The position numbers were made by a program, and so were the translations under genes. Positions 3,580 to 21,997 of a stretch of DNA of 64,000 nt are shown piece after piece; positions within the stretch are counted from its first letter, which is position 1; each line of letters begins with the position of its first letter. Where the stretch lies: positions 62,001 to 126,000 of the forward strand of contig CAISIK010000027.1 of NCBI GenBank assembly GCA_903885375.1, read 5' to 3'. Source of the stretch: an uncultured Pseudomonadota bacterium. Its GTDB lineage: Bacteria > Myxococcota_A > UBA796 > SXON01. The notes under the pieces are model-generated. The model saw nothing but the letters and a program-made list of their open reading frames with translations, did not search any database and was not told where the DNA came from.

Positions 3580-4704
3580 TCAGAAGATGTCGAGCGAGCT
3601 GCCCTGGAGCTCGATGACGTAGTCATCCTCGACGGGGTCGTTGCTGATGATGTGCAGCACGTTGTTGTCGAGGTCCTTGATGGAGAGGTCGACGCAGGTG
3701 GAGTTCGCATCCCCCCGGTAGGTGACCTTGAACGACGTCGTCTTTCCGGGAGCCACGGTTTTGGAGCCGGTCCACCCCGAGAGGGAGAAGGTGCCGCAGG
3801 TGGCGATGATGTCGTTCTCCACCGAAACGTCGCTCACCACGAGGTCCTCGTCACCATCGTTGCCCACGGTGATGGTGCGGCCATCGTCGGCCCCATCGAT
3901 GCTGAAGAAGTCGGTGATGGCGTAGTCGCTGCTGCTGCCGGTATCGACCTCGATGAGCGGCGAGCACACGTCGCAACTGTCGATGCCTTCGCCGGTGAGC
4001 GCGATGCGGGTCGTGGGCGAGCCCGGATCGTCGGACTCGATCACCAGGTTCGTGGAGTACGACTTCTGCGCGGTGGGCGTGAACGTGACCTCGATCACGC
4101 GGTACTCGCCCGGATCGAGCGTGCGCGGGGGGGTGAGGTTGCCCCCGAGGACGAAGGCCGTATCGCCGCTTGAGGCCGCGCTGACAGTGAGCGCCTCGGT
4201 GCCCGTGTTGGTGACGACGAGCTGCTTCATCGCGCTGGCGTAGAGGTCGAGCTTGCCGAAGGCCAGCGAGGGCTGATCGGTGGAGAGCTCCGCGCCGGAG
4301 GTGGAGCCGCCACCCGTGTCCTCGCCTTCGCCCGCCGCGCGCCCGAGGAGCTCGACGGTGGCCGTTTCCTTGCCGAGGGTCAGCTCGATGGCGCCGGCGT
4401 GCTCACCGGCCTCCGTGGGCTCGTAGGAGAGCGTGAGCACCGTTTCGGTTTCGTTCTCGAGGTCGAGGCCCGTGGAGTTCACGCCGAAGAACTCTCCGCT
4501 CACCGAGGCGGTGGCATGCACCAGCTTCCCGGAGGTGTTGGTGAGCACCAGCGCTTCTTCGCCGATGTCGCCCACGTCGAGCTCGCCGAAGTCGATCGAA
4601 GTGGCGTTCAGCGTGACGCCATTGACCGTTTGGTTCGTGCTGCCGCCCCCAGCCTGGGGAATGGGCTGGAGTCCGATGCAGCCGAGGAGGAGGGGGATCA
4701 TCAC
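3580..4704 (-). CDS. Lipoprotein with ASH / choice-of-anchor-D type Ig-like repeats
   Basis: A 374-residue exported protein. The first nine residues end in a very short lipobox-like LLLGC, so it is probably a lipoprotein, although the signal peptide is short. The mature part holds about three Ig-like repeats of the ASPM/SPD-2/Hydin (ASH, choice-of-anchor D) kind (roughly residues 35-125, 145-240, 265-374). These show the pattern xxFGxLDVGxxxxxxLxLTNTG, then a TxxVTFTP strand and an ESDDP loop. A GEDTGGG linker separates the first two. Such repeats are found in surface proteins of myxobacteria. No catalytic motif is visible and the function is unknown. It lies 22 bases downstream of the barrel gene nfsH and may be transcribed with it. 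Confidence 0.75.
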   Translation of the reverse strand: MMIPLLLGCIGLQPIPQAGGGSTNQTVNGVTLNATSIDFGELDVGDIGEEALVLTNTSGKLVHATASVSGEFFGVNSTGLDLENETETVLTLSYEPTEAGEHAGAIELTLGKETATVELLGRAAGEGEDTGGGSTSGAELSTDQPSLAFGKLDLYASAMKQLVVTNTGTEALTVSAASSGDTAFVLGGNLTPPRTLDPGEYRVIEVTFTPTAQKSYSTNLVIESDDPGSPTTRIALTGEGIDSCDVCSPLIEVDTGSSSDYAITDFFSIDGADDGRTITVGNDGDEDLVVSDVSVENDIIATCGTFSLSGWTGSKTVAPGKTTSFKVTYRGDANSTCVDLSIKDLDNNVLHIISNDPVEDDYVIELQGSSLDIF

Positions 4705-4726: not shown

Positions 4727-5515
4727 TCAGAAAGTGTACTTCAACGACGCCGAAGCGTTGAGCCCGAGGTCCCAACCGACGGCGTAGAACACGTCGGCAT
4801 CGATGCCCACCGAGAAGTGGGAGAGCTTGGTGTAGTACTCGAGCGTGGGGCCGGCGAAGCCGTAGGGGTGGATGCTGCCCTGGATGCCGGGATCCGCGCC
4901 GAAGGCGGGGATGACATCCTCGGTGTACCCCGTGGACTCCACGAGGTGGGGGCTGTACAGCGCACCGCCGCCCGCGCGGAAGCCGATGCCCACCCGACGG
5001 ATCGGGTAGGCGCTGAACTCGTAGGCGGCCTGCAGCGAGTAGGTGCGAAGGTCGCCCTCGGTGCAGGGGTAGCCGCCCGCGGCGCCACCGTTGAAGTCGC
5101 ACAGGCCGCCCTGAAGCTCCCACGCGAGGCCGTTGTGGATGCCCTGGACGAACCCGACTTCCCAAGCCATCGACTGCTTTTCGTTGTCGACGAAGTCCTG
5201 CCCGAAGCTCAGGCCGACCACCGTTCCGGCGCTGACCGCCGAACCGTTACCCTTGTTGCCGAAGTTCAGCAGGTAGGCCCCCGCGCCCATGTTGGCGCGG
5301 GCGTAGAAACCACGCACGATTTCGCGGATGGTGCGCTCGTCTTCCGGGCGCGCCTTCTTCTTCTTCGGCGTGTCCTCCTCCTCGTCGGACTCCTCTTCTT
5401 CATCGGAGGCGACGGCATCATCGGAGCCCACGGCGACGAGCCAGGGCTGGGGCAGGGCCGGCTCCGCGGCGACTGCAACGGGCAGGACGAGGGCAAGCAA
5501 CGGAGCGACGATCAT
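4727..5515 (-). CDS. nfsH: Outer-membrane barrel protein, NfsH/GltH (CglE)-like
   Basis: A 262-residue protein with a clean signal peptide (MIVAPLLALVLPVAVAAEPA), an acidic-then-basic low-complexity stretch near residues 35-55 and a C-terminal region of alternating amphipathic strands ending in aromatic KYTF, as in outer-membrane beta-barrels. The frame is open further upstream, but only the ATG at 5515 gives a signal peptide. By position it is the last gene of the eight-gene cluster and occupies the place of nfsH in Myxococcus xanthus. Its counterpart in the gliding complex is the outer-membrane protein GltH/CglE. The assignment rests mainly on order and fold and is less certain than for nfsC-nfsG. 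Confidence 0.7.
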   Translation of the reverse strand: MIVAPLLALVLPVAVAAEPALPQPWLVAVGSDDAVASDEEEESDEEEDTPKKKKARPEDERTIREIVRGFYARANMGAGAYLLNFGNKGNGSAVSAGTVVGLSFGQDFVDNEKQSMAWEVGFVQGIHNGLAWELQGGLCDFNGGAAGGYPCTEGDLRTYSLQAAYEFSAYPIRRVGIGFRAGGGALYSPHLVESTGYTEDVIPAFGADPGIQGSIHPYGFAGPTLEYYTKLSHFSVGIDADVFYAVGWDLGLNASASLKYTF

Positions 5516-5555
5516 CAGTACGACCTCAGCGCGGCAGGTTTTAGCACAGGTGGGG

Positions 5556-7397
5556 CTAACCCGGCGAGAAGATGAAGGGATAGCTGACGATGACGATGCC
5601 GCCGCCCTTCGGTTCGGGGAACTGGAAGCGCATGAAGCGACCGTTGATGCAGCCTTCCACAGCGGGGCTACCCATGGTAGAGGCCTTGGTCGTGGCCGAG
5701 GACACGGTGCCATCCTTGGCGATGACGAACTTCACCGTGATCTTGCCGCCGAGCGCGGGGTTCTTGGTGAGCTCCCGCTGGTAGCAGTAGCGGATCTGGT
5801 TCATGTTGCGCTTGATGACGGCGTCGATGAGCGACTTGTCGAGCGCGCCGAGGATGATCGGGTCGCCACCGGGGGCGCCGATGCCGCCTTCGCCCTTCTT
5901 GCCGAAGTTGCCGCCGCCGGAGCCGTAGCCGCTGGCGCCCGACCCACGACCCTTGGTGCCGAGACCGCCGAGGCCATCCGCCGTGCCGCCGCCGCCGAGG
6001 CCGGAGCCGCGACCGCCGAGACCGCCGGAGCCCATCTGGGTGCCCTTGGCGCCGATGAGGCCGCCGATGCCGCTCATGGTGTCGGCGTTCATGCCGGTGG
6101 CGCCGAGAGCCTGGTCGAGGGCGGAGTCATCGCGCAGCGAGCCCAGCACGCCGGCGTTCTCCGCGATCTCCTTGTCCAGCTGCTGCTTCTGCATCTGGAC
6201 CTTTTCGCCCTTGGCCTTGTCCATCTTGGCGTCTTTCTTGCCGACCTTGCCCTCTTCCTTCTTCGCCTTGGCGCCTTCGCCGGCGTCAGGGTTCTTGTCC
6301 TCCTTCTTGTTGTCCTTCTTCTCCTCCTCCTGCTTCTGCAGGAGCAGCTCCACCATGTGGTCGTCGAGACCGTTGTTGGAGCCCTTCGGGGGCGGGGGAA
6401 GGAACATGTAGGCGAAGGTCATCGCGGCGGTGATGAAGCCCATGAAGGCCACGATGCCGACGATGGGCCAGTCGATCTGGGAGGCGCCCTTGGGGGCGAG
6501 CTTGCCCGGGTAGACGAGGTGGGCCACGAAGATGGTGGTGCCCAGGTCGACCACGAGGCGGGTGTCTTCGCCGATGTCGATGCTGAAGAGCTCGCCGCCA
6601 TCACGCTTGGCCGAGCCATCGGCCAGCATCTCGGCGAAGGTCTTGCGGGTCTCGCCCACATCCACGAAGCCGGCCCACTTGTCGGAGACGCGCGCGGTCC
6701 AGCGGCCGCCGGCGTTGCTGAACAGCTGGAAGTTCCGGCTGGGGAGCATGTCCGAGGGGACGAAGAACGCGGACTCCCACGCATCGCCGAAGAAGCTCGA
6801 CTTCACGCCGGAGCCGAGGGTCACGGCCTGGCCGCGGAAGTGCCGCACGTCGACCACGGAATCGCCGAAGACCTGCGCCACTTCGAGCATCCGCCCGCGC
6901 GACTTGTCGGCGGCGGCGTCGTTCGCGGAGGCGCTGGCGCGCATCACGAAGGCCATCACGTCTTCCACGGGGCCCTCGTCGTCTTCCGAGACGGGGAGCG
7001 ACTCGCCGGGGCTGGTGTGGTCATCGCCCGCATCCTCGCCCGCGGCGCTGAGCGCGGAGGCGCTCTCACCGGCGGCCTCGACGGCCTCGGGGATCGTCAC
7101 GGTGATGCGGATGTCGCCGATGCTGATGGTGTCGCCGGAGCGGAGCACCACGTTGCTGACGGATTCGCCGTTGACCTTGGTGCTCTGGTCGCCCACGAGG
7201 TCGAGCAGCTGAACGGAGCCGTCCTCGTTCACGTTGAGCACGGCGTGCAGGTCCTGCAGCGCGGAGGCTTCGACACGAAGCATCGCCGCCGGACCCTTGC
7301 CGATGGTGACGCTCTCGTTGCGAAGCTCTTCCCGCCGGAGAAGCTGATCGCCGTTGTAGATGTCGAACGTGAGGGAAAGTGAGCTGCTGCCGGCCAT
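5556..7397 (-). CDS. nfsG: NfsG/GltG-like inner-membrane protein: FHA domain, one TM helix, TonB-like C-terminal domain
   Basis: 613 residues. The N-terminal ~105 residues resemble an FHA fold (phosphothreonine-peptide binding in other proteins). A second cytoplasmic region follows, then a single membrane helix at about 309-333. The periplasmic part has a Lys/Glu-rich coiled stretch, a Gly-rich linker and a C-terminal domain (about 515-613) of the AgmX/PglI TonB-like type, with the motif NMNQIRYCYQRELTKNP. In M. xanthus, GltG and its sporulation paralogue NfsG have this FHA-TM-TonB layout and couple the inner-membrane motor to periplasmic and outer-membrane parts. It lies between the nfsF and nfsH homologues, as in the Myxococcus nfs operon. 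The Gly-rich linker probably spans the periplasm. Confidence 0.85.
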   Translation of the reverse strand: MAGSSSLSLTFDIYNGDQLLRREELRNESVTIGKGPAAMLRVEASALQDLHAVLNVNEDGSVQLLDLVGDQSTKVNGESVSNVVLRSGDTISIGDIRITVTIPEAVEAAGESASALSAAGEDAGDDHTSPGESLPVSEDDEGPVEDVMAFVMRASASANDAAADKSRGRMLEVAQVFGDSVVDVRHFRGQAVTLGSGVKSSFFGDAWESAFFVPSDMLPSRNFQLFSNAGGRWTARVSDKWAGFVDVGETRKTFAEMLADGSAKRDGGELFSIDIGEDTRLVVDLGTTIFVAHLVYPGKLAPKGASQIDWPIVGIVAFMGFITAAMTFAYMFLPPPPKGSNNGLDDHMVELLLQKQEEEKKDNKKEDKNPDAGEGAKAKKEEGKVGKKDAKMDKAKGEKVQMQKQQLDKEIAENAGVLGSLRDDSALDQALGATGMNADTMSGIGGLIGAKGTQMGSGGLGGRGSGLGGGGTADGLGGLGTKGRGSGASGYGSGGGNFGKKGEGGIGAPGGDPIILGALDKSLIDAVIKRNMNQIRYCYQRELTKNPALGGKITVKFVIAKDGTVSSATTKASTMGSPAVEGCINGRFMRFQFPEPKGGGIVIVSYPFIFSPG

Positions 7398-7452
7398 GTT
7401 TCGTCCTCGGAGCCGGGCGTCTCGCGACGGGCTCCTGGGGTGGGGTGGTTTG

Positions 7453-7731
7453 CTACTTGACTTCGTCGACCGACTGTTCCATCTCTTCGTTGAAGTCAGC
7501 GCGGAGCTTGATCAGCGGGTTGAACTGAGCCTTCTTGCGGTCGAGGACGAGGGCGCTCTGGGGTTTGACCAGCTCACCGTTCACATCCAGCCCTTCGAAG
7601 TCGATTTCGGTCTTGGTCTTGTAGACGACCTTCGTTTCCCCTCCGCCCTCTTCATCCTGGGCGAGCGCCGCGGAGGCGCCGAACCCGGCGAGAAGGGCAA
7701 CGAGGATGGTGCGGGAGGTGAACTTGACCAT
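7453..7731 (-). CDS. nfsF: Small periplasmic protein, NfsF/GltF (CglF)-like
   Basis: 92 residues with a signal peptide (MVKFTSRTILVALLAGFGA, cleavage after ALA near residue 24) and a conserved-looking core KTEIDFEGLDVNGELVKPQ followed by a charged tail. The frame is open further upstream but only this ATG gives a signal peptide, and a GGAG sequence precedes it. Small proteins with this core occur between gltE/nfsE and gltG/nfsG in myxobacteria (GltF, also called CglF). A promoter-like sequence lies about 45 bases upstream, so nfsF-G-H may also be transcribed separately from the genes before them. Confidence 0.75.
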   Translation of the reverse strand: MVKFTSRTILVALLAGFGASAALAQDEEGGGETKVVYKTKTEIDFEGLDVNGELVKPQSALVLDRKKAQFNPLIKLRADFNEEMEQSVDEVK

Positions 7732-7776
7732 GGGCGACTCCGTGAGGCGGGATTGTTCCCGACGGCGAGCAGTTGG

Positions 7777-7806
7777 ACAATAGGGCAACGGTTTGGTTCC
7801 CGTCAA
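7777..7806 (-). promoter_or_regulatory. Candidate housekeeping promoter for nfsF-G-H
   Basis: On the minus strand, TTGACG (7801-7806) and TATTGT (7777-7782) are separated by 18 bases, close to a sigma-70 -35/-10 pair. The sequence lies in the only comparatively AT-rich gap of the cluster and ends about 45 bases before the nfsF start codon. Confidence 0.45.
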
Positions 7807-7828
7807 ACTTGCGTGTGCGGCGATCGGG

Positions 7829-9307
7829 CTAGCCCGGGGCGGGAGCCGGGGCGGGAGCCGGTTCGGGAGCGGGAGCCGGAGCCGGGGTGGGCTCGGGGGC
7901 CGGCGCGGGGGCCGGGGTGGCAGTGGCGCACGCGGCCACGGCCTCGGCGAGCTGCGCCTTGGCATCATCCACGAAGGTGGTCATGTCGGCCACCATCGCG
8001 AGGTCCTTCTCCGCGATGACCGGCTTCGCCTGCTCGATGACCATGGGCACGAGGTCCATGACGCCGGAGGGGCTGGTCGCGAGGCACTCCCCGTACTTCG
8101 CGATGTCGGCTTCCATCGACTTGATGGTGACATCCATCGCGGCGAGGCGCTCGGCATCACGCTTGGCGCGCTCCTCGGCCTCGATGCGCTTGCGCTCGAT
8201 CTCGGCTTTGCGCTTCTTCTCCGCCTCTTCGAGGGACTTGATCTCGTCCTTCAGCTTGAAGATGTCGTCGGTGGGAGAGATCGTGCCGGCGCTGGTGGTC
8301 ACGAAGGTGTCCAGGATGCCTGCGGCCTTGGTGAACTTCTTCGTGTAGTGCATGTGCAGCATGACCGCGTTGGTGGTCAGCGTGCGGTTCGTCGGGTCGC
8401 GCTTGAGCAGGGAGTCGTAGATCTTCTCGGACTCGTCGTACTCCTTCTCGCCGCGCAGCGCGATGGCGTAGCCCATCTGGATGTCGACGTTGGCGGGGTA
8501 CTGCTTGGCGATCGGCTCGAAGCAGGTGCGCGCGAGCGGGTAGTCGCCCGAGTTGAGCGCCACGTACCCGAGGTTGAGGTTCGCCTCGAGGTTGGAGGGA
8601 TCCACCTTCAGCGCCGTGCGGAACTGCTCGATGGCAGCGGATTCGTTGTGCTGGGCGAGGTGGGTCACGCCCATGTTGTTGTAGATACCCGCGTCGGCAT
8701 CGTTCAGCGTGCGGGCCTTTTCCGCGGCCAGCGTGCTCATGCCGTAGTCGCCCTTGGCGTAGTAGGCGCGGGAGAGGTTGCGGTAGGCGCCGACGTTCTT
8801 CGGGTCGCGCGCCAGCACTTCCTGCGCTTCGGCCACCGCCTCGTCGTACATCTTGGCGGAGGTGTAGGCATCCACCAGGTTGTTGCGGGCTTCGATGTCG
8901 TCGGGGTGGGCATCGACGTAGGCCTTCAACGCCGTGGCGCCCTCGGCCGCCTTGCCGTTGGCGACCAGCGCCCCGCCGAGGTTGAACACCGCGGCCGAGA
9001 AGTCGGGCTGCAGCTCGACGGCCTTGCGGTAGTAGGTCTCTGCCTTGGCAAGGTCGCCCGTGCGTTCGGCGGCATAACCAGCGTTGAACCACGCCTTGGT
9101 GTAGGAACCGTCGGCGGTGGTGGCGGCCTCGAACCGGGCGAGCGCGCCGGCGTAGTCGGCGGTACCGCCGGCTCCCCCGAGGAGCTTCACGCCGGCGGCG
9201 AATTCGGCCTTGGGATCGACCTGCGCCGCGGCGTTGGGGTCGGTCTCGAGGGGCTTCTTCTCGCCACAGCCAGTGAGGACGAGCGCGATGAGGAGGATTC
9301 GGAGCAT
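7829..9307 (-). CDS. nfsE: TPR lipoprotein, NfsE/GltE (AglT)-like
   Basis: 492 residues. The N-terminus MLRILLIALVLTGCGEKK is a lipoprotein signal with lipobox LTGC. Residues ~45-310 are tetratricopeptide repeats (for example KAWFNAGYAAERTGDLAKAE and SNLEANLNLGYVALNSGDY). A Lys/Glu/Arg-rich coiled coil follows at ~325-395, then a Pro-Ala tail built from PAPAPEP units. Its family counterpart in the Myxococcus gliding complex is the outer-membrane TPR lipoprotein GltE, and in the spore-coat complex NfsE. The start lies 3 bases after the stop of nfsD, so the two are coupled. The acidic Pro-Ala tail is likely a flexible extension. Confidence 0.85.
   Translation of the reverse strand: MLRILLIALVLTGCGEKKPLETDPNAAAQVDPKAEFAAGVKLLGGAGGTADYAGALARFEAATTADGSYTKAWFNAGYAAERTGDLAKAETYYRKAVELQPDFSAAVFNLGGALVANGKAAEGATALKAYVDAHPDDIEARNNLVDAYTSAKMYDEAVAEAQEVLARDPKNVGAYRNLSRAYYAKGDYGMSTLAAEKARTLNDADAGIYNNMGVTHLAQHNESAAIEQFRTALKVDPSNLEANLNLGYVALNSGDYPLARTCFEPIAKQYPANVDIQMGYAIALRGEKEYDESEKIYDSLLKRDPTNRTLTTNAVMLHMHYTKKFTKAAGILDTFVTTSAGTISPTDDIFKLKDEIKSLEEAEKKRKAEIERKRIEAEERAKRDAERLAAMDVTIKSMEADIAKYGECLATSPSGVMDLVPMVIEQAKPVIAEKDLAMVADMTTFVDDAKAQLAEAVAACATATPAPAPAPEPTPAPAPAPEPAPAPAPAPG
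7832..7921 (-). repeat. Short tandem repeat coding the Pro-Ala-Glu tail of NfsE
   Basis: About 90 bases of degenerate GC-rich repeats (units near CCGGGGCGGGAG on the plus strand) at the 3' end of nfsE, translating as PAPAPEP-type units. Such repeats are prone to slippage, so tail length may vary between strains. Confidence 0.7.
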
Positions 9308-9310
9308 GGC

Positions 9311-12300
9311 TTAGGGCTCTTTTTCGAAGGAGGCGGTCTTGGCCGAGGGCGCGGAGAAGCGCGGCGAAGGGATGGTCTCGAAGAGGCCAGGGTACTCATC
9401 CGGCGCCAGCACGCCGAGACGACGCGTGGCTTCTGCAGTGCTCTCGTCGTACAGCGAGAGCTCGTACGCCTTGGTGAGGGCCGCGCTGTAGAAGGTCGCG
9501 GCCTTCTGGGTGGCCGGGTAGGCCTTGTCTTCCAGCGCCATCCGGTAGATTTCCTTCTGGTCCTCGGTGAGGTAGGTCGGAATGTACGAGTTGAGCAGGG
9601 TCGACGCGAGGTCTTCCGAGGCGTGCCCAAGGCGGACGAGCGAGGCGGTACCCCACTTGCCCGCGCCGGAGGAGATGATCTTGTTGTAGGTCGCTTCCAG
9701 TGCGCTGAAGGCCTTCACCTTGTTCTTGAGCTGCTCGAGCAGGAGCTTGTCGACCTGCTTCTGCGGCAGCTTCTTGTCGCCGGGGCCGCTCACCTTCATG
9801 GCCATGTAGGCGGCATACTCCGGCTCGGAGAGCGCGAAGAGCATCTGCGCGTAGGCTTCGGTGGCCACTTCGCCACTGGCGCCGGCCGCCTTCTGCCCCT
9901 CGTAGAAGGTCACGCCGTCCTTCCAGTGCTGCGTGAGCTTCGGCGCCATGCCGATCTTGTCCATCATCAGCCCGTAGCGGAGCCGCGCGAACATCATCTC
10001 GTCGAACGTGTACTGCACGGGGGGCGGGGCGCCCTTGACCGGGCGGCCGGTCGCCACCGAGAACACGCCCATGTAGACCTTGCTGGCCTCGGCGTACTTG
10101 CCGTTGGCTTCGTAGATCTTGGCGATTTCGAGCTGCACACCGTTGATGTTGGGCTCGGTCTTGTAGGTGCCCATGTACTTCTGGTAGTCGCCAATCGACT
10201 GCTCCCACTGGCCCATCGCGCCGCGGAACAGCGCCGCGGAGAAGATGGCGTCCTTCGAGCCAGGGTGCGCCTGGTCCATGGAGTACAGGCGCTCGTACCA
10301 TTCGGCGGCGTGCGTGAAGTCGGCGGTGGACTCGTAGTCGAACCCGAGCGCGGCCACCTGGTCCTTGTAGTACTTGGACTTGGGGAAGTTCTCCACGATC
10401 TCGTGGCGAACCTTCATGGCATCGCGGGTGCGGCCGAGGTCGTGGTAGTACACGCTCGCGTTGTTCAACGCGAGGTCGGCGTTCTGCGACTTCGGGAATT
10501 CCTTGTAGAACGCCCAGTAGTCCGCCGCGCCCTTGGCCTTGTCGTTCGACTTCTTGAAGCCGACCTCGATGAGCTTGAGCGAGGAGTTCTCGTAGATGCC
10601 GAAGACCTCCTTCTTGAAGCCGTCGGAGCCAAGGCCGTCCTGATCGTAGAAGGCCTTGCTGACCTCCTTCAGGTTGGGCCAGTCCTCGACGAGCGTGAAG
10701 CTGTCGAGGATGAGGTTCGCGGCCTGCTCGGCTTCCTTCGACTTCGGGTCCATCCCGATGACGATGCGGAACCGGTCGGACGCGTCCTTGAACTGGTTGT
10801 TGTTGTACAACAGGTACGCGGACTTGTAGATGATGCTCCGGACCTTGGCATCATCCGGGTACAGCTTGGCGAACTGGTCGAGCGCCGTGAGCAGCTTCTT
10901 CTCCCAGTCGGTGAGCTCGATCGGCTCGGTGCCGGAGCCGGGGCCGTCGGACTTCTTGTCCTTCTTCACGAACTCGTCGGCCGCGAAGATCGCGGATTCG
11001 GCGCAGAACTTGGAGTGCTTGCCCTTCGGGTCCATCGCGACGACCTTCATGTACTGGTCGTAGGCGACGTCGAACTTCTTCAGCTTGTAGAGCAGCTCGC
11101 CATAGTCGTGCCGCATGTCGTAGCTGTACTTCGAGTCGGGGAACTCCTCGAGGTACGTGGCGTACGCGCCTTCGGCGAGGGCACGCACGCGCTTCTGGGC
11201 CTCGCCCGTGAGCTTGTTGCCCTCGATCTGGTAGTTGGTGGCCACCGTACGCAGGCTCTTCTCGATGAGCTCCTGCGCGGACTTGATCGACTCGGTGTTG
11301 CTCGCGTTGGCGCGCGCCCAGGAGCTCGACTTGCCGTACTGGGTGCGGAGGCGGTCGATCTCCGCGATCGTGTCCTCCTTCTTGCCCATCTTGGTGAGGC
11401 ACTGGATGATTTCGTTCTGGTACTCGGGGGCTGTCGGCGCCGTCGGCTGCTCGGTGATGAGCCGGCGGTAGGTCTGGATGGCCTGCTCGAACTTGCCCTG
11501 CTCGAAGTAGGTGGCGGCGAGCCGCTTGAGCATGTCGCGTACGAGTTCGGGGCGGCCGAGCTTGCCGAAGTACTCGTAGGCTTCGTCGAGGTTGCCGGCG
11601 TCGGCAAAGAAGCGGACGAGGTCCTTGAGCGCTTCATCCTGGAGCTGGATGTTGCCCTTGGTGTTCGCCTGCTTCGTCGAGTAGTCGACCACGGTCTTCA
11701 TCGTGTCGATGGCCTTGCCGTACTCGCCGACGTTGTACCAGCACCACGCGAGCTTGTAGTTCGCGAAGGCGTACTTCTCGAAGTCGCGGAAGGAGGCGGC
11801 GCGCTGGTACGCGGTGAGCGCCTTCATCGCTTCGTTCTTGTCGAAGTAGTACTCGCCGATGAGCAGGTAGGCATCGGGGATGAAGCGGCTGTCCTGGTAG
11901 GTCTTCACCAACCGGGTGAGCTCGAGGTTGCTCTCATCGCGACGCTTGGCATCACCCGTGGCGTTGGCGATCTCGTTGAGCGCCTGGCCCAGGTAGAAGG
12001 TGGCCTCGTCGGCACGCTGGAACTGCGGGTAGTTCTGGAGGATCTGGCGATACAGCTTGATGCTGCGCTCCTGCCAGGAGGCGGAGGCCGCGTGATCCTG
12101 CGGAATCTTGTCGGGCTCGCACTTCGGGGTGTTGAAGCACTTGTCGAACTCGGCGCTGTAGGCCTCCATCTCGCCCTGGTACAGGAAGCGGCCCTCTTCG
12201 AAGAAGAGGTCGGCGAGGCGGAGCAGCATCTCGGCCTTCTGGTCACCCTCGAGCACCGAGTCCTTCAGCAGCTGCTTCAGGCGCTCGATGGACTCCATGC

Positions 12301-12502
12301 GCGCCGCGTGGGCCTTCTCCTCGAACTCCTTCTGCGCGGCATCACGGGCGCTGGCGTCGGTGGCCTTGAGCACGCGGCGATCGCCGCGGGCACCGCGGTC
12401 CTGGGCCATGGCCTGGTCGGGCGCGACGAGCGAGCCCGCCAGCGGGATGACCGCCAGGGCGAGGAGCAGGTTGGAACGAAGGAACTTGAATCGGAACATC
12501 AT
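9311..12502 (-). CDS. nfsD: Giant periplasmic TPR protein, NfsD/GltD (AgmU)-like
   Basis: 1063 residues, the largest protein of the cluster. A signal peptide of about 34 residues ends in AMA. The rest is almost entirely TPR-like helical repeats in which aromatic and alanine positions recur (for example ATFYLGQALNEIANA, ADAYWAFYKEF-type units). The family match by size, location and repeats is GltD/AgmU, a periplasmic part of the Myxococcus focal-adhesion gliding machinery, and its paralogue NfsD of the spore-coat machinery. It is preceded by nfsC with a 65-base gap and followed by nfsE after 3 bases. No enzymatic motif is visible, and a scaffold or tether role across the periplasm is the likely function. 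Confidence 0.83.
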   Translation of the reverse strand: MMFRFKFLRSNLLLALAVIPLAGSLVAPDQAMAQDRGARGDRRVLKATDASARDAAQKEFEEKAHAARMESIERLKQLLKDSVLEGDQKAEMLLRLADLFFEEGRFLYQGEMEAYSAEFDKCFNTPKCEPDKIPQDHAASASWQERSIKLYRQILQNYPQFQRADEATFYLGQALNEIANATGDAKRRDESNLELTRLVKTYQDSRFIPDAYLLIGEYYFDKNEAMKALTAYQRAASFRDFEKYAFANYKLAWCWYNVGEYGKAIDTMKTVVDYSTKQANTKGNIQLQDEALKDLVRFFADAGNLDEAYEYFGKLGRPELVRDMLKRLAATYFEQGKFEQAIQTYRRLITEQPTAPTAPEYQNEIIQCLTKMGKKEDTIAEIDRLRTQYGKSSSWARANASNTESIKSAQELIEKSLRTVATNYQIEGNKLTGEAQKRVRALAEGAYATYLEEFPDSKYSYDMRHDYGELLYKLKKFDVAYDQYMKVVAMDPKGKHSKFCAESAIFAADEFVKKDKKSDGPGSGTEPIELTDWEKKLLTALDQFAKLYPDDAKVRSIIYKSAYLLYNNNQFKDASDRFRIVIGMDPKSKEAEQAANLILDSFTLVEDWPNLKEVSKAFYDQDGLGSDGFKKEVFGIYENSSLKLIEVGFKKSNDKAKGAADYWAFYKEFPKSQNADLALNNASVYYHDLGRTRDAMKVRHEIVENFPKSKYYKDQVAALGFDYESTADFTHAAEWYERLYSMDQAHPGSKDAIFSAALFRGAMGQWEQSIGDYQKYMGTYKTEPNINGVQLEIAKIYEANGKYAEASKVYMGVFSVATGRPVKGAPPPVQYTFDEMMFARLRYGLMMDKIGMAPKLTQHWKDGVTFYEGQKAAGASGEVATEAYAQMLFALSEPEYAAYMAMKVSGPGDKKLPQKQVDKLLLEQLKNKVKAFSALEATYNKIISSGAGKWGTASLVRLGHASEDLASTLLNSYIPTYLTEDQKEIYRMALEDKAYPATQKAATFYSAALTKAYELSLYDESTAEATRRLGVLAPDEYPGLFETIPSPRFSAPSAKTASFEKEP

Positions 12503-12567
12503 CGACGACTCCGGGTCGCGTCGGCGTCAGACATTGGGGGGCGAGTGAAGGTTCTCGGAGAGCCGAG

Positions 12568-14409
12568 CTACTTGCACTTTGCCTGTTCGGTGTAGTGGTA
12601 CCAACCCAGCTCATCCTTCCAATACTCGCCGTTGAACGGCCAGTAGATGAAGCGGGGTGAAGTGGCGAAGTCGGTGTCCTGGCTCTTCGCGGTGTCCTTC
12701 AGGTCGATGTTCTGCATGCTGTACGTGTAGTCCGCACGGCGAGCATCCACGACTTCGAACTGGATGATCTGGGCCTGGCCGATGAGCTCGCTCATCTGCT
12801 TGGTGACCGTGACCATGTTGCGGAGAAGGGCGCGGCCGGCGCGCTTCTTCAGGCGCTCCCGGCTTTCGGCGATGATCTTCATCGTCTCTTCGCCCACCGC
12901 GGTCTTCCACTGCGACTTCTGCGAGAGGATCAGCTGCTCTTCCGTGTCGAGCAGCGCGAGGTGCTGGACGAGGCCGGCCAGCTCCTGGTCGCGGAGCAAG
13001 CGGAGGAAGAGGGACTTCGGCAGCAGGGTTTCGCCCTTGCTTTCGAAGTAGCGCTCGTAGGCCTGATCGGAGAGCTTGCGGCCTTCCTCCGAGGAGTACG
13101 TCTTCAGCGTGTCCTTCAGCTCCTGGTGGATCGGCACGTACGTGGCTTCGAACTCCTTCAGCGTGCGCTCGACGTCGTCGAACTGGCAGAGGTTGAAGTA
13201 GGTCAGCGCGCGGAGCACCGTGGCTTCCGGGATGAACTCGTTGTCGGCGTAGTACGGGCTCTCGACGGTGAGGACCTCGCCGAGGGTGTAGTTGAGGTCG
13301 CTGAGCATGAACAGCGTCCACGCCATTTCGAACTGCGCTTCGGCCCAGTAGACGCTGTCGCGCGGGACCTGGGAGTAGTACTCCTTGGCCTGATCGTACT
13401 GCGCGATGCCGTAGTAGATGCGTGCGATGTTGAGCACCGCGAGCTCGCGGAGCTTGTCGAGGGCTTCGAGCTCCTGGAGCGTGGGCGCGTCGACCTTGGT
13501 CTTGGCCACTTCGGAGAACGACCGCACCGCCGACTTGAGCTTGCCCTGCTTGTTGTCGATGACGCCCACCAGGTAGGTGGCGCGGGTGTAGAGGTCGGAC
13601 TTCTCGCTCACCTGCTGGAGCATCTTCTTGGCGTCGGAGAGTCGATCCGCCTCGTAGTACTGCAGGCCGAGGAGGTAGTAGAGCTGGTTCCGGGCCGACC
13701 GGGGGTAATCCTCGGGCGAGATCTTCTCGACGACCTTCTCGAGGTCGGTGACATCGCCCGTGTACTTGTAGATCGCCACCAGCTTCGGGAGCGCGTACTT
13801 GAAGTAGGGATTCCCCGTACCCTTCTTCAGCACTTCGATGAAGTAGTACTGCGCCGAGTGGTACATCTTGAGGTCGTAGAGCGACATCCCCATGTAGTAG
13901 AGGATCTTGCTCTCCTTCTCGGGGTACGTGTTGTCCTTGAGGAGGTCGTGCAGGGCGAGACTGGCCGAGAGCGGCTTCTTCGCCTTGTACTGGCGGATGG
14001 CGTCGTCGAGCTTCTCCGGGTCCTTGCCGGCCTCTTCGTCGCTGTCCTTGTCGGAGAGCTCCTTGCGGGAGGAGTCCTTGCCCACGCTGGTGTCCTTCTC
14101 GAAGGAGTCGCGCGAGGCGGCCTTCTTCGACTTGGGCGCGGGAAGCTCCTCGTCGTCGGCGGGCTCGGCCGGGGCATCCTTCGGGGCGGAGTTCGCGGCG
14201 ATCATCTTCTTGACCGCAGCCACCACGGGATCGGGCGCGCCCTCGTTGGTGAGGCAGCGCACGAAGTCGGCCGTGAACGACTCGCCCGAGCCTTCGATGG
14301 TCTGCACCACGATGCTCTCGGGAACGTTCACGTTGACCATGTTCATCACTTCATCGCAGGTCAGCGCGTGGGCCGGCGCCGCGAGGGTGAGCAGGAGGAG
14401 CGGAGACAT
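12568..14409 (-). CDS. nfsC: Periplasmic TPR protein, NfsC/GltC-like
   Basis: 613 residues. The short signal peptide MSPLLLLTLAAPAHA is followed by a small conserved-looking N-terminal domain containing two cysteines (TCDEVMNMV... VRCLTNEG, about residues 17-75). Next come an acidic/basic low-complexity linker (~95-135) and TPR-like helices to the end. The Myxococcus counterparts GltC and NfsC are periplasmic TPR proteins working with the A and B barrels. The start codon directly abuts the stop of nfsB (no spacer), which implies tight translational coupling. Confidence 0.82.
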   Translation of the reverse strand: MSPLLLLTLAAPAHALTCDEVMNMVNVNVPESIVVQTIEGSGESFTADFVRCLTNEGAPDPVVAAVKKMIAANSAPKDAPAEPADDEELPAPKSKKAASRDSFEKDTSVGKDSSRKELSDKDSDEEAGKDPEKLDDAIRQYKAKKPLSASLALHDLLKDNTYPEKESKILYYMGMSLYDLKMYHSAQYYFIEVLKKGTGNPYFKYALPKLVAIYKYTGDVTDLEKVVEKISPEDYPRSARNQLYYLLGLQYYEADRLSDAKKMLQQVSEKSDLYTRATYLVGVIDNKQGKLKSAVRSFSEVAKTKVDAPTLQELEALDKLRELAVLNIARIYYGIAQYDQAKEYYSQVPRDSVYWAEAQFEMAWTLFMLSDLNYTLGEVLTVESPYYADNEFIPEATVLRALTYFNLCQFDDVERTLKEFEATYVPIHQELKDTLKTYSSEEGRKLSDQAYERYFESKGETLLPKSLFLRLLRDQELAGLVQHLALLDTEEQLILSQKSQWKTAVGEETMKIIAESRERLKKRAGRALLRNMVTVTKQMSELIGQAQIIQFEVVDARRADYTYSMQNIDLKDTAKSQDTDFATSPRFIYWPFNGEYWKDELGWYHYTEQAKCK

Positions 14410-15270
14410 CTACTTCATCCCCGGGAAGAAGAAGGAAACGTTCGTCTGGACGATGAGGTTGTTCTTCATCTCCAGGGTCGTGGACTTGACGGTTTCGATG
14501 TAGGTCATCGACTTCACCTCGGCCCGGAGGGCCACTGACTCGCTGAAGGCGATGCGGGCGCCGCCGCCCATGACCGTGGTGGGGTGCACCTGGCTGGCCG
14601 TGCGGTGCGCAGGACCATCCGGTGGCTCATCTTCGGCCTGGAGGGCGACGATGTCGTCTTCCGTGGCGGTGATGCCGAGCCCGACGGTGCCGTACACGTC
14701 GAACGCGATGATGCTGTTGCCGGCGGCAACCTTGCCGTAGATCGGGGCGAACTGCAGGCCGACGGAGCCGTGCGCGGTGAGCCGCGAGATGTCGGGCGAC
14801 ACGCTGTTCTTCTCGAGGAGCTGGCAGGACAGCGGCTTCCAGTCGGGGTCATCGCAGCCGCCCTGACCGAGGACAGGGCTGTAGGCGGCGGTGGCCTCGA
14901 TCGCGAAGATCTCGGTGGCGTGGTAGTCGAAGACCGCCCCGAGGATGTACCGGTTGAGGAAGGGATCGTTGGCGACGAAGCCGAGCGACGGGCCGATCTC
15001 GTAGCGGTGCAGCTTCATGAAGGTCTTCGGCTGGATGGTCTTGATGACCTTGCGCTTGCGCTTCGGTTCCTCGACCTTCTTGGCCGATTCGACCTTGCCG
15101 GACTTCACGGCTTCGCGCTCGGCCTTCACCGAGTCTTCGTCTTCTTCTTCATCCTGCGCCACGGCTTCGACGGCGAGGCTCGGGGAGCCGGAGTCGACCG
15201 CGAGCCCGGCGTCGACTTCGTCGGCCAGGGCCATCGGAGCGATGGCGAGGGAAAGGGCAATGCTCAGCAT
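14410..15270 (-). CDS. nfsB: Outer-membrane beta-barrel protein, NfsB/GltB-like
   Basis: 286 residues with a signal peptide (MLSIALSLAIAPMALA), an acidic/basic linker (~35-75) and a barrel region that starts at the family-like MKLHRYEIGPSLGFVANDPF and proceeds through alternating strands to the C-terminus. The same opening motif (aromatic-Arg-aromatic-Glu followed by a V/Y-xN-P/S turn) appears in the next gene upstream, so nfsA and nfsB are paralogues, as they are in Myxococcus. The predicted site is the outer membrane, as part of the barrel pair of the Nfs/Glt complex. Stop and next start abut (14410/14409). Confidence 0.82.
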   Translation of the reverse strand: MLSIALSLAIAPMALADEVDAGLAVDSGSPSLAVEAVAQDEEEDEDSVKAEREAVKSGKVESAKKVEEPKRKRKVIKTIQPKTFMKLHRYEIGPSLGFVANDPFLNRYILGAVFDYHATEIFAIEATAAYSPVLGQGGCDDPDWKPLSCQLLEKNSVSPDISRLTAHGSVGLQFAPIYGKVAAGNSIIAFDVYGTVGLGITATEDDIVALQAEDEPPDGPAHRTASQVHPTTVMGGGARIAFSESVALRAEVKSMTYIETVKSTTLEMKNNLIVQTNVSFFFPGMK

Positions 15271-15286
15271 CGGGTGTCCTGGCCGC

Positions 15287-16174
15287 TCAGAAGTTGAAGA
15301 TGCGGGGCTTCATCTTCGGAATGAAGATGCTGATGCCGCCGGTGGTGATGAACGCCGTCTGGACCTCGTTGTTGAGGACCTGCGGCTGTCCGGTGGTGGG
15401 GTCCACGTCGCCGACGATGTAGTCGGCCTCGGGGCCGATGAACACCAGCGTTCGCGCGTCGATCTTCAGGGCGATGCTCGGCGAGAGGAACACATTGATG
15501 CCGGCACCGAGGTTCACGGCGGGGCTGAACTGCGTGCTGGGCTGCGGCTCGACGTACACCGGGTCGTCGGAGTTGCCCGAGCGGTAGTCCTCGGAGATCG
15601 TGGCCACGTCCTTGCTGATGGCGAGGAGGCCGACGCCGCCGGTGCCGTACACGTCGAAGTTCACGACGCCTTCACCGATGAGGTTGATCTTGCCGTAGAC
15701 AGGCGCCCAGCGCGCGCTGAAGGCGGCGGCCATCTGGAGCCGATCGATCGGCTGCTGGAACTTCGTCTTGGGATCGCCCTGGTAGGCGATGTCCAACAAG
15801 GTGCGGGTGAGCCCCTTCACGCCGGAAACGCCGCTGTTCGGCGAGTACATGAAGGCGGCCTCGACCGCGAACCGCTCGCTGAAGTGGTAGGCGAGGAAGG
15901 CCCCACCCACGTACACGTCGGCGAAGGAGTTGTTCGGCACGTACCCGAGGGCGGGCGCGAATTCGAACCGGTTCGTCTTCAGGAAGAAGCGGTTCCGGAT
16001 TGGATCCGGAATGGGCTTCTTCCCGTTGAATTCGCCGAGGGCTACCTCGGCGGAGTTCTTTTCGCGAGCGAACGCCACATCCGGCGTGAGCAACCCCGTT
16101 GCCATGATGGCAAGGGCGGCCGCACCACCGAGAAGGCGCGAGATGGGTCCGAGAAGGCGACCTGCAGGCTTCAT
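15287..16174 (-). CDS. nfsA: Outer-membrane beta-barrel protein, NfsA/GltA-like
   Basis: 295 residues from the ATG at 16174, which gives a signal peptide of ~36 residues ending DVAFA and has GGAG seven bases upstream. An upstream in-frame start is possible but would add 20 residues before the signal. The barrel region begins FLKTNRFEFAPALGYVPNNS, parallel to the opening of NfsB, and holds the matching strand FDVYGTGGVGL (FDVYGTVGLGI in NfsB). It is the first gene of the eight-gene cluster and probably forms the outer-membrane platform with NfsB. Confidence 0.82.
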   Translation of the reverse strand: MKPAGRLLGPISRLLGGAAALAIMATGLLTPDVAFAREKNSAEVALGEFNGKKPIPDPIRNRFFLKTNRFEFAPALGYVPNNSFADVYVGGAFLAYHFSERFAVEAAFMYSPNSGVSGVKGLTRTLLDIAYQGDPKTKFQQPIDRLQMAAAFSARWAPVYGKINLIGEGVVNFDVYGTGGVGLLAISKDVATISEDYRSGNSDDPVYVEPQPSTQFSPAVNLGAGINVFLSPSIALKIDARTLVFIGPEADYIVGDVDPTTGQPQVLNNEVQTAFITTGGISIFIPKMKPRIFNF

Positions 16175-16691: not shown

Positions 16692-17561
16692 TCAGGGCTC
16701 GCTCTCGGAGAAGGTCAGGTTCAGCGTGGCCCAACCCATCCCGCCGCGGCGATCCCGCACCACCACCCAGATCGCTTGCGCATCGAGGGTGGGGTCGTCG
16801 GGAGCGAAGTACACCACGCTGTCGAAGGGGTGGAGCGTATTCGTTTGGTCGAATGTACCCTCCTGCAGGTACCAGGAGAGGTAGGGCTCCTCCGTGCGCT
16901 CCTCCTCCTCCCCGCTCTCGTTCCGGAACGTGTAGGTTTCCACCGCGTCTTCGGCGAGCACGCACTCCACGGTGTAGGCCTGCCCGCGATCGAGGCGGAC
17001 CGTGGCACCATCCTCGATCTCGAAGCCATCCACCTTCCAGCCGGCAACCACCGGATTGTGGTTTGGCGTCGTCGCAAGCGAGACCGGCACTCGCTTGTAG
17101 GCGATCTCCACGTCGTCCTCCGCCAGCTCCTGCCCCTCGGTGAGCTCCGGGAAGGCCGTGATGTAGGTCATCGCGAAGGTGCCTTCGAGACGGTCAGCCT
17201 CCGGCAGGGCGTCGAGGAAGTCGTCCGGCACGATCCAGGCGGGCGGAATGGCGGGGAGGTAGCCGATGAATCCGGCCGCCTGAAGCGCTTCCAGGTCCAT
17301 GTCCTCGGGGTCGCCGCTGCCGAGCAGGGCCGGATCGATCTCGCAGCCGTAGTCGGAGCTCGCTTCGGCGCTGCACACGAACCACGCACTGCCGCCCAGC
17401 GCCTTCGCGGGAGAGAGGATGAGGGCATCGAAGGTCACGACGTCGCCGGGGCGCGGTTCCGCCGGGGTGGCGGCCACGGCGAGCACCCGGAGGCGATCGA
17501 TCTGCCACGACTCGGCCATCGACGCGCTGTCACACGCGGAGAGTATCTGGATAATCAGCAT
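16692..17561 (-). CDS. Putative lipoprotein coupled to the TonB-dependent receptor
   Basis: 289 residues from the ATG at 17561, which overlaps the receptor stop codon as TAATG. The N-terminus MLIIQILSACDS is a very short lipoprotein-like signal with Cys at about residue 10. The protein is acidic and beta-rich, and its C-terminal ~110 residues look like an Ig-like domain (from HNPVVAGWKVDG). Receptor-coupled lipoproteins often act as surface-exposed or periplasmic ligand-binding partners of the barrel; that role here is inferred from the one-base overlap only. A longer upstream reading in the same frame would run inside the receptor gene and gives no signal peptide. Confidence 0.7.
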   Translation of the reverse strand: MLIIQILSACDSASMAESWQIDRLRVLAVAATPAEPRPGDVVTFDALILSPAKALGGSAWFVCSAEASSDYGCEIDPALLGSGDPEDMDLEALQAAGFIGYLPAIPPAWIVPDDFLDALPEADRLEGTFAMTYITAFPELTEGQELAEDDVEIAYKRVPVSLATTPNHNPVVAGWKVDGFEIEDGATVRLDRGQAYTVECVLAEDAVETYTFRNESGEEEERTEEPYLSWYLQEGTFDQTNTLHPFDSVVYFAPDDPTLDAQAIWVVVRDRRGGMGWATLNLTFSESEP

Positions 17562-20188: not shown

Positions 20189-20952
20189 TGTTCGATCCTC
20201 ACCGTGCAGACCTGGGGTACGCCCGTGACGGCCACGGGCGTGCCATCCTGGTTCCCGGGCACGAACTTCGCCTTGCGCCACGCTGCTGCGCACGCCTCGC
20301 CGGTGCCGTAGCCGAGGTCGCCCACGACGCGCACGGCGGACACGCTGCCCGCGGGGTCGATGTCGAGGCTCACCTTGATCTCTCCTTCGACGCCGGCCTT
20401 CTGGGCCTCCTCCGGCACGTCCATCATGGGGCGCATCCGGCTCTTCGGGGGCGTCGTGACGCTCGCGAACGTGCGCGGGCCTGTGGCCTCCTCGATGCTC
20501 ATGCCGGGCCCGGCGGCGGCGACACGCGTGGAGTTGCCCGCGCGCGCATCGAGCCCCGTACCCGAGCCGGGCGCGTAGGAGTTGGCGGAGAGGCCCTGGG
20601 TTGCGCGCCGGATCGGCCGCGCGGCCGGTTCGGGCGGCGGCGCTTTCTCGGGGACCGGCTCGGGCGGAGGGATGTCCGCGAACTTCACCGCCTTCGGCTT
20701 CGGTGTGGGCTTCGGGGCCTCCACCGGCGGGGGCGGCGGAGGTGGCGGCGGCGCGGGCGGAGGCGGGGTGGTGACCACCATCTCCACCCACTCGGGCGGC
20801 TTCGACTCCCGAACCGGTTGCGCGAGGATCGCGGTGGCGGCTACCGCGTGGAACACCACGGACGCGAGGATGCCGAGCGGGACGATCCACAATCGTTCGC
20901 TGCGCGACTCGCCGAACGGCGAGAGCGAGCCGGTGGTCCCGGTGGCCGTCAT
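20185..20952 (-). CDS. tonB: TonB energy transducer
   Basis: 255 residues. The N-terminal cytoplasmic part is followed by a membrane helix (~22-42), a poly-Pro segment with PKPTPKPK that would span the periplasm, and a C-terminal TonB-like domain (~170-250, PEEAQKAGVEGEIKVSLDI then AAAWRKAKFVPG). TonB passes proton-motive energy from ExbB-ExbD to outer-membrane receptors. Start and stop overlap the neighbouring genes by 4 bases on both sides (exbD/tonB and tonB/receptor), so all are coupled. Two cysteines near the C-terminus (EACAAA and QVCTV) could form a disulfide. Confidence 0.88.
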   Translation of the reverse strand: MTATGTTGSLSPFGESRSERLWIVPLGILASVVFHAVAATAILAQPVRESKPPEWVEMVVTTPPPPAPPPPPPPPPVEAPKPTPKPKAVKFADIPPPEPVPEKAPPPEPAARPIRRATQGLSANSYAPGSGTGLDARAGNSTRVAAAGPGMSIEEATGPRTFASVTTPPKSRMRPMMDVPEEAQKAGVEGEIKVSLDIDPAGSVSAVRVVGDLGYGTGEACAAAWRKAKFVPGNQDGTPVAVTGVPQVCTVRIEQ

Positions 20953-21374
20953 GGGGCGGGGCTGCCGGGGATCGGGTCGATATTGATCGCGAACTTCGCC
21001 ACGCCCTCCTGCTTCACCACGTCGATCACGTGGGTCACTGCGCCGTGGCGGGCGTTCATGTCTCCCGCAATGAGGCAGATGACCTCCTTGCTGCCGGCCT
21101 TCGCGGTTCGCACCGCCTCGCGGAGGCCCGCTTCGGTGACGGGCGCGCCATCGAGCAGGAGGCTGCCGTCCTCGAGCACCGAGATCGCGAGCGACGAGGG
21201 CGCGGTGGCATCGCCGGTGGCGGCGTCGGGGAGGTTCACCTTGATGGAGGGGGACACGATGTACGAGGTGGTCACCATGAAGATGATGAGCACGACGAGG
21301 ATGATGTCGACCAGCGGGAGGATGTTGATCTCCGTCATCCCCTCGTCGTCACCCCCCAGCCGGGCGCCAGCCAC
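20949..21374 (-). CDS. exbD: Biopolymer transport protein ExbD/TolR family
   Basis: 141 residues. A single membrane helix in NILPLVDIILVVLIIFMVTT carries the conserved aspartate essential for proton coupling, followed by the periplasmic domain. The start is GTG at 21374 with GGGGAG five bases upstream; an internal ATG (MTEIN) is less well placed. It overlaps tonB by 4 bases and follows exbB by 2 bases. With ExbB it forms the stator that drives TonB. Confidence 0.9.
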   Translation of the reverse strand: MAGARLGGDDEGMTEINILPLVDIILVVLIIFMVTTSYIVSPSIKVNLPDAATGDATAPSSLAISVLEDGSLLLDGAPVTEAGLREAVRTAKAGSKEVICLIAGDMNARHGAVTHVIDVVKQEGVAKFAINIDPIPGSPAP

Positions 21375-21376
21375 GC

Positions 21377-21997
21377 CTACTCCCCTTCCGCGCGCATGCG
21401 GGCGACCACGAGGTCCGCGAGGCTCTCGATGCGGCCCACCTGCGCCCGCACCATCCGCGTCAGCACGTTGTAGAGCACGACGGAGGGGATCGCGACCATG
21501 AGCGCCACCGCGGTGGCCACCAGCGCCTCCGAGATGCCGGACATCACGGTCTTGGCGCCTTCTTCCGAGGTGAGCGAGAGGTCGTGGAAGGCCTGGATGA
21601 TGCCCAGCACGGTGCCGAAGAGGCCGATGAACGCGGCCGTGGAGGCCACGGTGCCGATCGCGATGAGGCCGCGCTCCAACCGAAGCTTCTCGAACAGCAG
21701 CGTGCCCTGCATGGCGTAGCGGGAAGCCGCGCTCGCCCGCGCCCGGAGCCCCGCGAGGACCACGCGCGACTCGATGCCGCCGAGCGAACCGAGGGTGGTT
21801 TCCAGCTCACCCCGCTCGCCGCCGCCGAGGTACCGGCCCACGGCCGCCTCGAAGCGGGCGGCGGGGGTGCGGTTGACCATCATGTACACGATCCGCTCCA
21901 CGCCGATGGCCACGCACATCGCGGACATCCCCACCAGCAGCCAGAGCACCCAGCCCGCGCCGAGAAGTGCGAAGTTCAGCATCGCCTGAGCCAGCAT
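21377..21997 (-). CDS. exbB: ExbB/TolQ/MotA-family proton channel protein
   Basis: 206 residues with three predicted membrane helices (~7-30, ~110-135, ~155-178). The conserved block TVASTAAFIGLFGTVLGIIQAF and the following AVALMVAIPSVVLYN helix are diagnostic. GGAGG precedes the ATG at 21997. It forms the proton channel with ExbD. M. xanthus AglR and the Nfs/Glt motor belong to the same wider family, so in this position it could conceivably also serve the nearby Nfs-like complex, but its coupling to tonB and the receptor makes the import role the primary call. Confidence 0.88.
   Translation of the reverse strand: MLAQAMLNFALLGAGWVLWLLVGMSAMCVAIGVERIVYMMVNRTPAARFEAAVGRYLGGGERGELETTLGSLGGIESRVVLAGLRARASAASRYAMQGTLLFEKLRLERGLIAIGTVASTAAFIGLFGTVLGIIQAFHDLSLTSEEGAKTVMSGISEALVATAVALMVAIPSVVLYNVLTRMVRAQVGRIESLADLVVARMRAEGE

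Follow-up and report, generated by a model that had tools for sequence, protein, structure and literature searches.

The role of the Glt/Nfs core in bacteria other than Myxococcus, and the path by which a non-motile ancestor became a gliding motor, have been open questions since 2011. Both are raised by a locus in a 64,000-nucleotide stretch of DNA (the window) from an uncultured bacterium of the GTDB lineage Bacteria; Myxococcota_A; UBA796; SXON01 (assembly GCA_903885375.1, contig CAISIK010000027.1, positions 62,001 to 126,000 of the forward strand). Eight genes, here called A to H, occupy positions 4727 to 16174 of the window and are predicted to encode a Glt/Nfs-type trans-envelope complex; upstream of A stand five further conserved genes for a Ton system, a receptor, and a lipoprotein. 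The Glt/Nfs family kind is known already, and what is new here is a class-specific Glt-type complex beside a Ton/receptor module. This Ton-receptor block and the class-wide subtype to which the locus belongs are more informative than the Nfs label. We propose, with a probability of about 0.5, that the two gene sets cooperate in surface transport or secretion powered by the proton-motive force, and not in Myxococcus-type gliding.

The A-H operon

All eight open reading frames are present on the minus strand and run in one direction, in the nfsA-H order that the first-pass annotation had read from this stretch. Scores are those of NCBIfam models, each with its curated cut-off.

A, 15287 to 16174, minus strand, 295 amino acids: GltA/NfsA-type, OmpA-like eight-stranded outer-membrane barrel (predicted; TIGR04565 OMP_myx_plus, 89.8 bits, cut-off 60)
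B, 14410 to 15270, minus strand, 286 amino acids: GltB/NfsB-type outer-membrane barrel, paralogue of A (predicted; TIGR04565, 88.4 bits, cut-off 60)
C, 12568 to 14409, minus strand, 613 amino acids: GltC/NfsC-type periplasmic TPR protein with a signal peptide (NF033756, GltC model, 252.6 bits, E 9e-75, equivalog cut-off 450)
D, 9311 to 12502, minus strand, 1063 amino acids: GltD/NfsD-type giant TPR protein with a signal peptide (TPR/YbgF matches, conserved position, orthology)
E, 7829 to 9307, minus strand, 492 amino acids: GltE/NfsE-type TPR lipoprotein with the lipobox LTGC (NF033758, GltE model, 125 bits, E 4e-36, cut-off 225)
F, 7453 to 7731, minus strand, 92 amino acids: CglF/GltF-type small periplasmic protein with a signal peptide (NF033764, CglF model, 54.5 bits, E 9e-15, cut-off 90)
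G, 5556 to 7397, minus strand, 613 amino acids: GltG/NfsG-type bitopic inner-membrane protein (NF033760, GltG model, 329.9 bits, E 3e-98, cut-off 650; tail, myxo_SS_tail NF033768, the AgmX/PglI tail, 107.6 bits, cut-off 40; PF00498)
H, 4727 to 5515, minus strand, 262 amino acids: CglE/GltH-type outer-membrane barrel (predicted; NF033755, CglE model, 98.9 bits, cut-off 70)

The starts of A, F, and H were set by the signal peptide, and 16174 is the start codon of A. The intergenic gaps are 16 nt (A/B), 0 nt (B/C), 65 nt (C/D), 3 nt (D/E), 97 nt (E/F), 55 nt (F/G), and 40 nt (G/H); the tight spacing pointed out earlier at B/C and D/E is exact.

Of the eight proteins, only A, B, and H pass the curated cut-offs, as does the tail of G, and C, E, F, and G find the GltC, GltE, CglF, and GltG models as their best matches at scores below the cut-offs. 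By these profile matches, C, E, F, and G are certainly homologues of Glt family proteins, and their equivalence to the Glt proteins is not certain. No dedicated NCBIfam model exists for D, which matches TPR/YbgF models only; it keeps the GltD slot between C and E and is co-linear and homologous throughout the locus set of the phylum. Together, the GltC, GltE, CglF, GltG, CglE, and OMP_myx matches bear out the first-pass annotation in that the locus encodes Glt/Nfs homologues and not generic TPR proteins alone. The barrel fold was checked on A, which is predicted by AlphaFold2 to form an eight-stranded barrel (mean pLDDT = 81) whose top PDB matches in Foldseek are OmpA structures. GltA and GltB of M. 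xanthus are likewise described as OmpA-like barrels (PMC4488436).

The adjoining Ton-receptor-lipoprotein operon

The range 4727 to 16174 given in the first pass is right for A-H and too narrow for the locus, as it misses five conserved genes on the same strand upstream of A (16692 to 21997).

ExbB, 21377 to 21997, minus strand, 206 amino acids: ExbB/TolQ-type proton-channel subunit (PF01618, 98.7 bits; NCBIfam TolQ, 99.5 bits); start chosen by comparison with class orthologues
ExbD, 20949 to 21374, minus strand, 141 amino acids: ExbD/TolR-type subunit (PF02472, 92.6 bits) with the transmembrane Asp present (PLVDIILVVLIIFM)
TonB, 20185 to 20952, minus strand, 255 amino acids: TonB (PF03544, 43.2 bits; TIGR01352 above cut-off)
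TBDT, 17561 to 20188, minus strand, 875 amino acids: Oar-like TonB-dependent receptor (Pfam domains)
X, 16692 to 17561, minus strand, 289 amino acids: lipoprotein with the lipobox LSAC and predicted Ig-like beta domains

The frames of these genes overlap or stand 2 nt apart, and the ExbB, ExbD, TonB_C, and plug domains all fall within one operon, which amounts to a complete ExbB-ExbD-TonB system with a TonB-dependent receptor. TonB consists of a transmembrane segment with an S-x3-H motif (SVVFH), a proline-rich spacer, and TonB_C. In the receptor, a signal peptide is followed by the Pfam domains TonB_C (residues 44 to 117), CarboxypepD_reg (143 to 215), and Plug (259 to 337), and no Pfam barrel model reached threshold over the C-terminal part that is expected to form the barrel. 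The receptor thus bears its own periplasmic TonB C-terminal domain at its N terminus, a domain that is absent from the set defining the architectures counted in PMC6434023. X matched no Pfam family; it is predicted with high confidence to be beta-rich (model pLDDT = 89.4), with weak Ig-type matches in the PDB.

A gap of 517 nt separates X from A, and a consensus scan of this gap for promoter and terminator signals found none, which is uninformative. The arrangement recurs in the class. In a survey of 20 further class stretches, 19 of which are readable, the TBDT and X genes directly precede A, in the same orientation, in 19 of 19, covering seven families, and ExbB-ExbD-TonB is found upstream of A in 16. 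The other three loci all belong to family f2 (G049, G101, and G054) and keep TBDT-X-A-H. The ExbB orthologues of these loci form one clade apart from the AglR-like TolQs, and this clade mirrors the split of the class into f6/f7 and f1-f5.

Distribution and layout of the locus

The core as such is ordinary in the phylum, because GltG-family matches occur in 136 of 141 of its genomes and GltC matches in 293 of 379. The comparison drew on 80 named loci of public genomes, together with 20 stretches of DNA from relatives. Where enough sequence is present, C-D-E-F-G is contiguous in nearly all Myxococcota loci that were read, and grouped clusters were described by Luciano 2011 in Anaeromyxobacter and Bdellovibrio (Bd0828-0838). 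The split glt genes of M. xanthus, in two clusters, are therefore the exception, which matches Luciano 2011.

Within the window's class, the order A-B-C-D-E-F-G-H is found in 14 of the 16 fully readable loci; the remaining two, from one genus, have no recognizable H. The recurrence of this order and content within the class is far beyond chance. Outside the class, G is usually followed by a TPR gene of about 300 amino acids (25 of 34 downstream reading frames are TPR) and a giant GltI-like TPR gene, and C is preceded by unrelated reading frames (YraN, rplS, and others), of which the TIGR04565 barrel model matches at most 3 of 52. No gltI was found beside G in any class locus. A single A-H locus throughout the phylum was accordingly rejected, as most loci outside the class have no A and B upstream of C and have TPR and GltI genes after G. 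The phylum in general keeps C-D-E-F-G together, and the window's class habitually gathers all of A-H at a single locus. The suggestion in the first pass that the single-locus layout may be ancestral is supported: such a layout is probably the older state, C-D-E-F-G being contiguous in nearly all Myxococcota loci read. An ExbB-ExbD pair in L184, considered as a second case of linkage, was rejected: hisS follows G there, and the pair lies 6 kb away.

Relation to Glt and Nfs

In the concatenated tree of C, D, E, and G, all class loci fall on one side of a single branch (FastTree support = 1.0, SH-like approximate likelihood ratio test = 100). The root is uncertain because the outgroup branch is long, and the class split is independent of the root. 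By this tree, the A-H loci of the class have a one-clade origin and form a deep clade that is fixed across the class. No Myxococcaceae locus was recognized in any search, and the tree holds no Myxococcaceae sequences. In M. xanthus, the closest homologues of the nfs genes are the glt genes, and vice versa; the most fitting term for the window locus is therefore a co-orthologue of Nfs and Glt alike, a step that we infer from a tree without Myxococcaceae. The Nfs-like label of the first-pass annotation is only partly right, and specific membership in Nfs is not supported: the locus lies in a separate deep clade of another class, and identity of A-H with Nfs itself was rejected as unproven.

The FHA domain of G and paralogues of G

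G is composed of a degenerate FHA domain (residues 30 to 94), a transmembrane segment, a Gly-rich linker, and a TonB-like tail (519 to 611). In every full-length G protein of the class, the FHA motif VSRMH has become LQDLH, LADLH, or similar, with loss of Ser and Arg, whereas the G proteins outside the class keep the Arg of the motif and mostly the Ser as well. Given the loss of these residues, phosphothreonine binding by the FHA domain has probably been lost in the class.

Several variants of G were observed. The G proteins of family f6 (L247, L248, and L249) have 1088 to 1144 amino acids, which is almost double the normal size, and their FHA domain is degenerate in the same way. A GltG paralogue without FHA is encoded in the A-H operon of several relatives (L235, L238, L244, L245, and L252), after G or between E and F, and in the genome of the window on another contig, C20 (L083, 15971 to 17329). 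Contig C13 (L084, 1572 to 3914) encodes a 780-amino-acid protein in which a VIT/vWA-type "marine sortase target" body is followed by a TonB-like tail of the GltG type. Lone full-length GltG genes with FHA and without C-F neighbors are found in L193, L196, L197, L199, and L207 (Nannocystis and others) and in L164 and L216, and in the last two an AglRQS-like triple lies a few kb from the lone GltG gene.

Motors and gliding components elsewhere in the genome

No AglRQS genes are linked to the A-H locus. The genome has several TolQ/ExbB and TolR/ExbD genes, and unlinked triples resembling R-Q-S were found on contigs C3 and C54. The one on C54 belongs to a second Glt-type locus (105.7 to 118.1 kb; L091, 5721 to 16105) with the order C-D-E-TolQ-TolR-TolR-G, which is the group B core complex known from the literature, including a dedicated motor (R-Q-S). 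The other is an orphan ExbB-ExbD-ExbD triple in R-Q-S order (C3:15291-17104); in other Myxococcota (L164 and L216), orthologues of its AglR-like gene lie close to GltG-type genes. Orthologues of this gene (at least 49% identity) are present in only 23 of 58 class genomes and absent from 35, several of which have A-H; the C3 AglR is therefore not an obligate partner of A-H, and the triple was rejected as its obligate motor. A TolQ-TolR-TolR set on C154 was rejected as first choice for AglRQS because its TolQ groups with ExbB/TolQ and not with the core-complex AglR.

No full equivalent of GltI or GltJ was found in the genome: the search for GltI gave only a 1892-amino-acid TPR frame with 26% identity, and the best GltJ candidate (481 amino acids) scores 50 bits against a cut-off of 450. 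Of the MglA/MglB polarity control, the MglB part was searched for, and no Robl_LC7 match for Roadblock/MglB was found. As the assembly is about 90% complete, the absences of GltI, GltJ, and MglB are provisional. With these results and the lack of AglRQS at the locus, the AglRQS-driven gliding or spore machine implied by the first-pass annotation is not supported.

Proposed function

The two adjacent operons may be regarded as one class-specific locus. The A-H operon would encode a Glt/Nfs-type trans-envelope complex, in which G sits in the inner membrane, a scaffold of C, D, E, and F crosses the periplasm, and A, B, and H are outer-membrane barrels. The upstream operon would supply a full Ton energizer (ExbB, ExbD, and TonB), the Oar-like receptor with its extra TonB domain, and the lipoprotein X. 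The Ton system would power the receptor, which would act with X at the surface, so that the proton-motive force is carried across the envelope to a transport or secretion event, of a glycan or a protein, organized by A-H. That the Ton block and A-H are kept side by side suggests a common process for the two; the physical coupling, the motor that drives G, and the cargo are what we infer. The choice of energized transport or secretion over gliding, to which we give an even chance, draws on analogy with Oar-dependent secretion and Nfs-dependent glycan movement. Oar of M. xanthus is a TonB-dependent receptor with a CarboxypepD_reg extension and is required for protein secretion with a Ton system (PMC6434023), and Agl-Nfs moves surface glycan (PMC3858216).

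Cooperation in surface transport is supported by the families of A-H, the OmpA fold, the TBDT-X adjacency, the overlapping frames, the ExbB clade, the class clade, the FHA loss, the patchy C3 AglR, and the failure to find MglB or full GltI and GltJ. Several observations weigh against it. The 517-nt gap between X and A may mean that the two operons are independent, and the three f2 genomes keep TBDT-X-A-H without ExbB-ExbD-TonB at the locus. The S-x3-H motif of the locus TonB is canonical and makes it look like an ordinary receptor partner, and the transmembrane segment of G has no such motif. The genome has AglRQS-like motors at other sites, on C3 and in the C54 core complex, and the Glt and Nfs machines of M. 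xanthus share one unlinked AglRQS. With Ton genes lost without loss of A-H, a canonical TonB, and other motors present, physical coupling is the weakest link. A stronger form of the proposal, which we consider less likely than not, is that the Glt-type complex has been rewired in this class: the dedicated ExbB-ExbD-TonB motor and the TonB-domain receptor would supply its force, or deliver force jointly with it. The result would be a single Ton-coupled machine for surface transport or secretion, distinct from both gliding and spore-coat motors.

The first alternative is that A-H is a GltA-H-like gliding machine driven by an AglRQS-like triple that is not linked to it (that at C3:15291-17104 or that of the C54 core complex), with the Ton-receptor operon as a conserved but functionally separate nutrient or siderophore system. 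The R-Q-S order on C3 and the proximity of the C3 AglR orthologues to GltG-type genes in other Myxococcota are consistent with it, as are the unlinked AglRQS of M. xanthus (M1 cluster), the 517-nt gap, and the proposal of Luciano that genomes with AglRQS and C-G, A, and B are potential gliders. Against it, the genome gave no Roadblock/MglB and no full GltI or GltJ, the C3 AglR orthologue is missing from most class genomes, including several with the A-H locus, and the Ton block is adjacent class-wide, unlike a random neighbor. We consider this alternative unlikely.

It is more doubtful still that the Ton-receptor-X block and A-H are functionally unconnected and owe their proximity only to the common descent of this part of the chromosome. 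The spacing does mark a separate operon, and ExbB-ExbD-TonB is gone from three f2 genomes that retain A-H; however, adjacency and orientation are kept across seven families on long branches, and TBDT-X remains with A-H even where ExbBD-TonB is lost. That A-H is a spore-coat or surface-glycan machine equal to NfsA-H, whose motor drags capsule polymer around the cell to build the coat, is improbable, for although the locus has the eight genes of nfsA-H in the nfs order and, like nfs, no I, J, or K, the shared content may be inherited and not Nfs-specific, the clade stands apart from all other Myxococcota loci read, and nfs and glt are closest to each other.

A class with fixed A-H, no gltI at the locus, a lost FHA motif, and a receptor module that always adjoins, mostly with a Ton motor, offers a defined setting in nature for the question whether the core is fundamentally a machine for envelope transport. 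The Ton system at the locus is a concrete alternative motor to weigh against AglRQS, and the class-wide association suggests that Glt/Nfs-type machines are adaptable to tasks other than movement.

Neighboring genes

Two genes flank the locus.

Lipoprotein-like protein, 3580 to 4704, minus strand: choice-of-anchor-D/ASH-type Ig repeats (NF012200, 88.4 bits); next gene after H
DUF2817 protein, 22561 to 23598, same strand: peptidase-like; upstream of ExbB

The lipoprotein-like gene occupies the same place after H in loci of families f1, f3, and f5, and its product is a possible accessory of A-H.

Comparison with known systems

The window locus shares with NfsA-H of the M. xanthus spore coat the eight protein types, their order, the single cluster, and the lack of GltI, GltJ, and GltK at the locus. 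It differs in its class, its deep separate clade, the adjoining Ton-receptor-lipoprotein block, and the lost FHA motif. Relative to the gliding machinery of M. xanthus, GltA-K with AglRQS, the window has homologues of GltA, B, C, E, F, G, and H, and of D by position; on the other hand, the genes form one locus instead of two, gltI, gltJ, and aglRQS are not linked, no Roadblock/MglB was found in the genome, and C, E, F, and G fall below the Glt equivalog cut-offs.

The C-D-E-F-G-TPR-GltI loci of Polyangia, Nannocystis, Plesiocystis, and Enhygromyxa have the same C-D-E-F-G core in the same order. They have no A and B at the site, where YraN, rplS, and others stand upstream of C, and carry the TPR and giant GltI-like TPR genes after G, whereas loci of the window class include A, B, and H but not gltI. 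The group B core complex of Gammaproteobacteria and others (C, D, E, and G with AglRQS) shares the C, D, E, and G types, and this genome has a copy of it with R-Q-S on C54; the window locus differs in that A, B, F, and H are present and AglRQS is not linked. With the Oar/Ton(Oar) system of M. xanthus, the upstream operon shares a TonB-dependent receptor with a CarboxypepD_reg extension and a plug, encoded with ExbB-ExbD-TonB, and it is set apart by the extra N-terminal TonB_C of the receptor, the lipoprotein partner X, and the fixed A-H neighbor.

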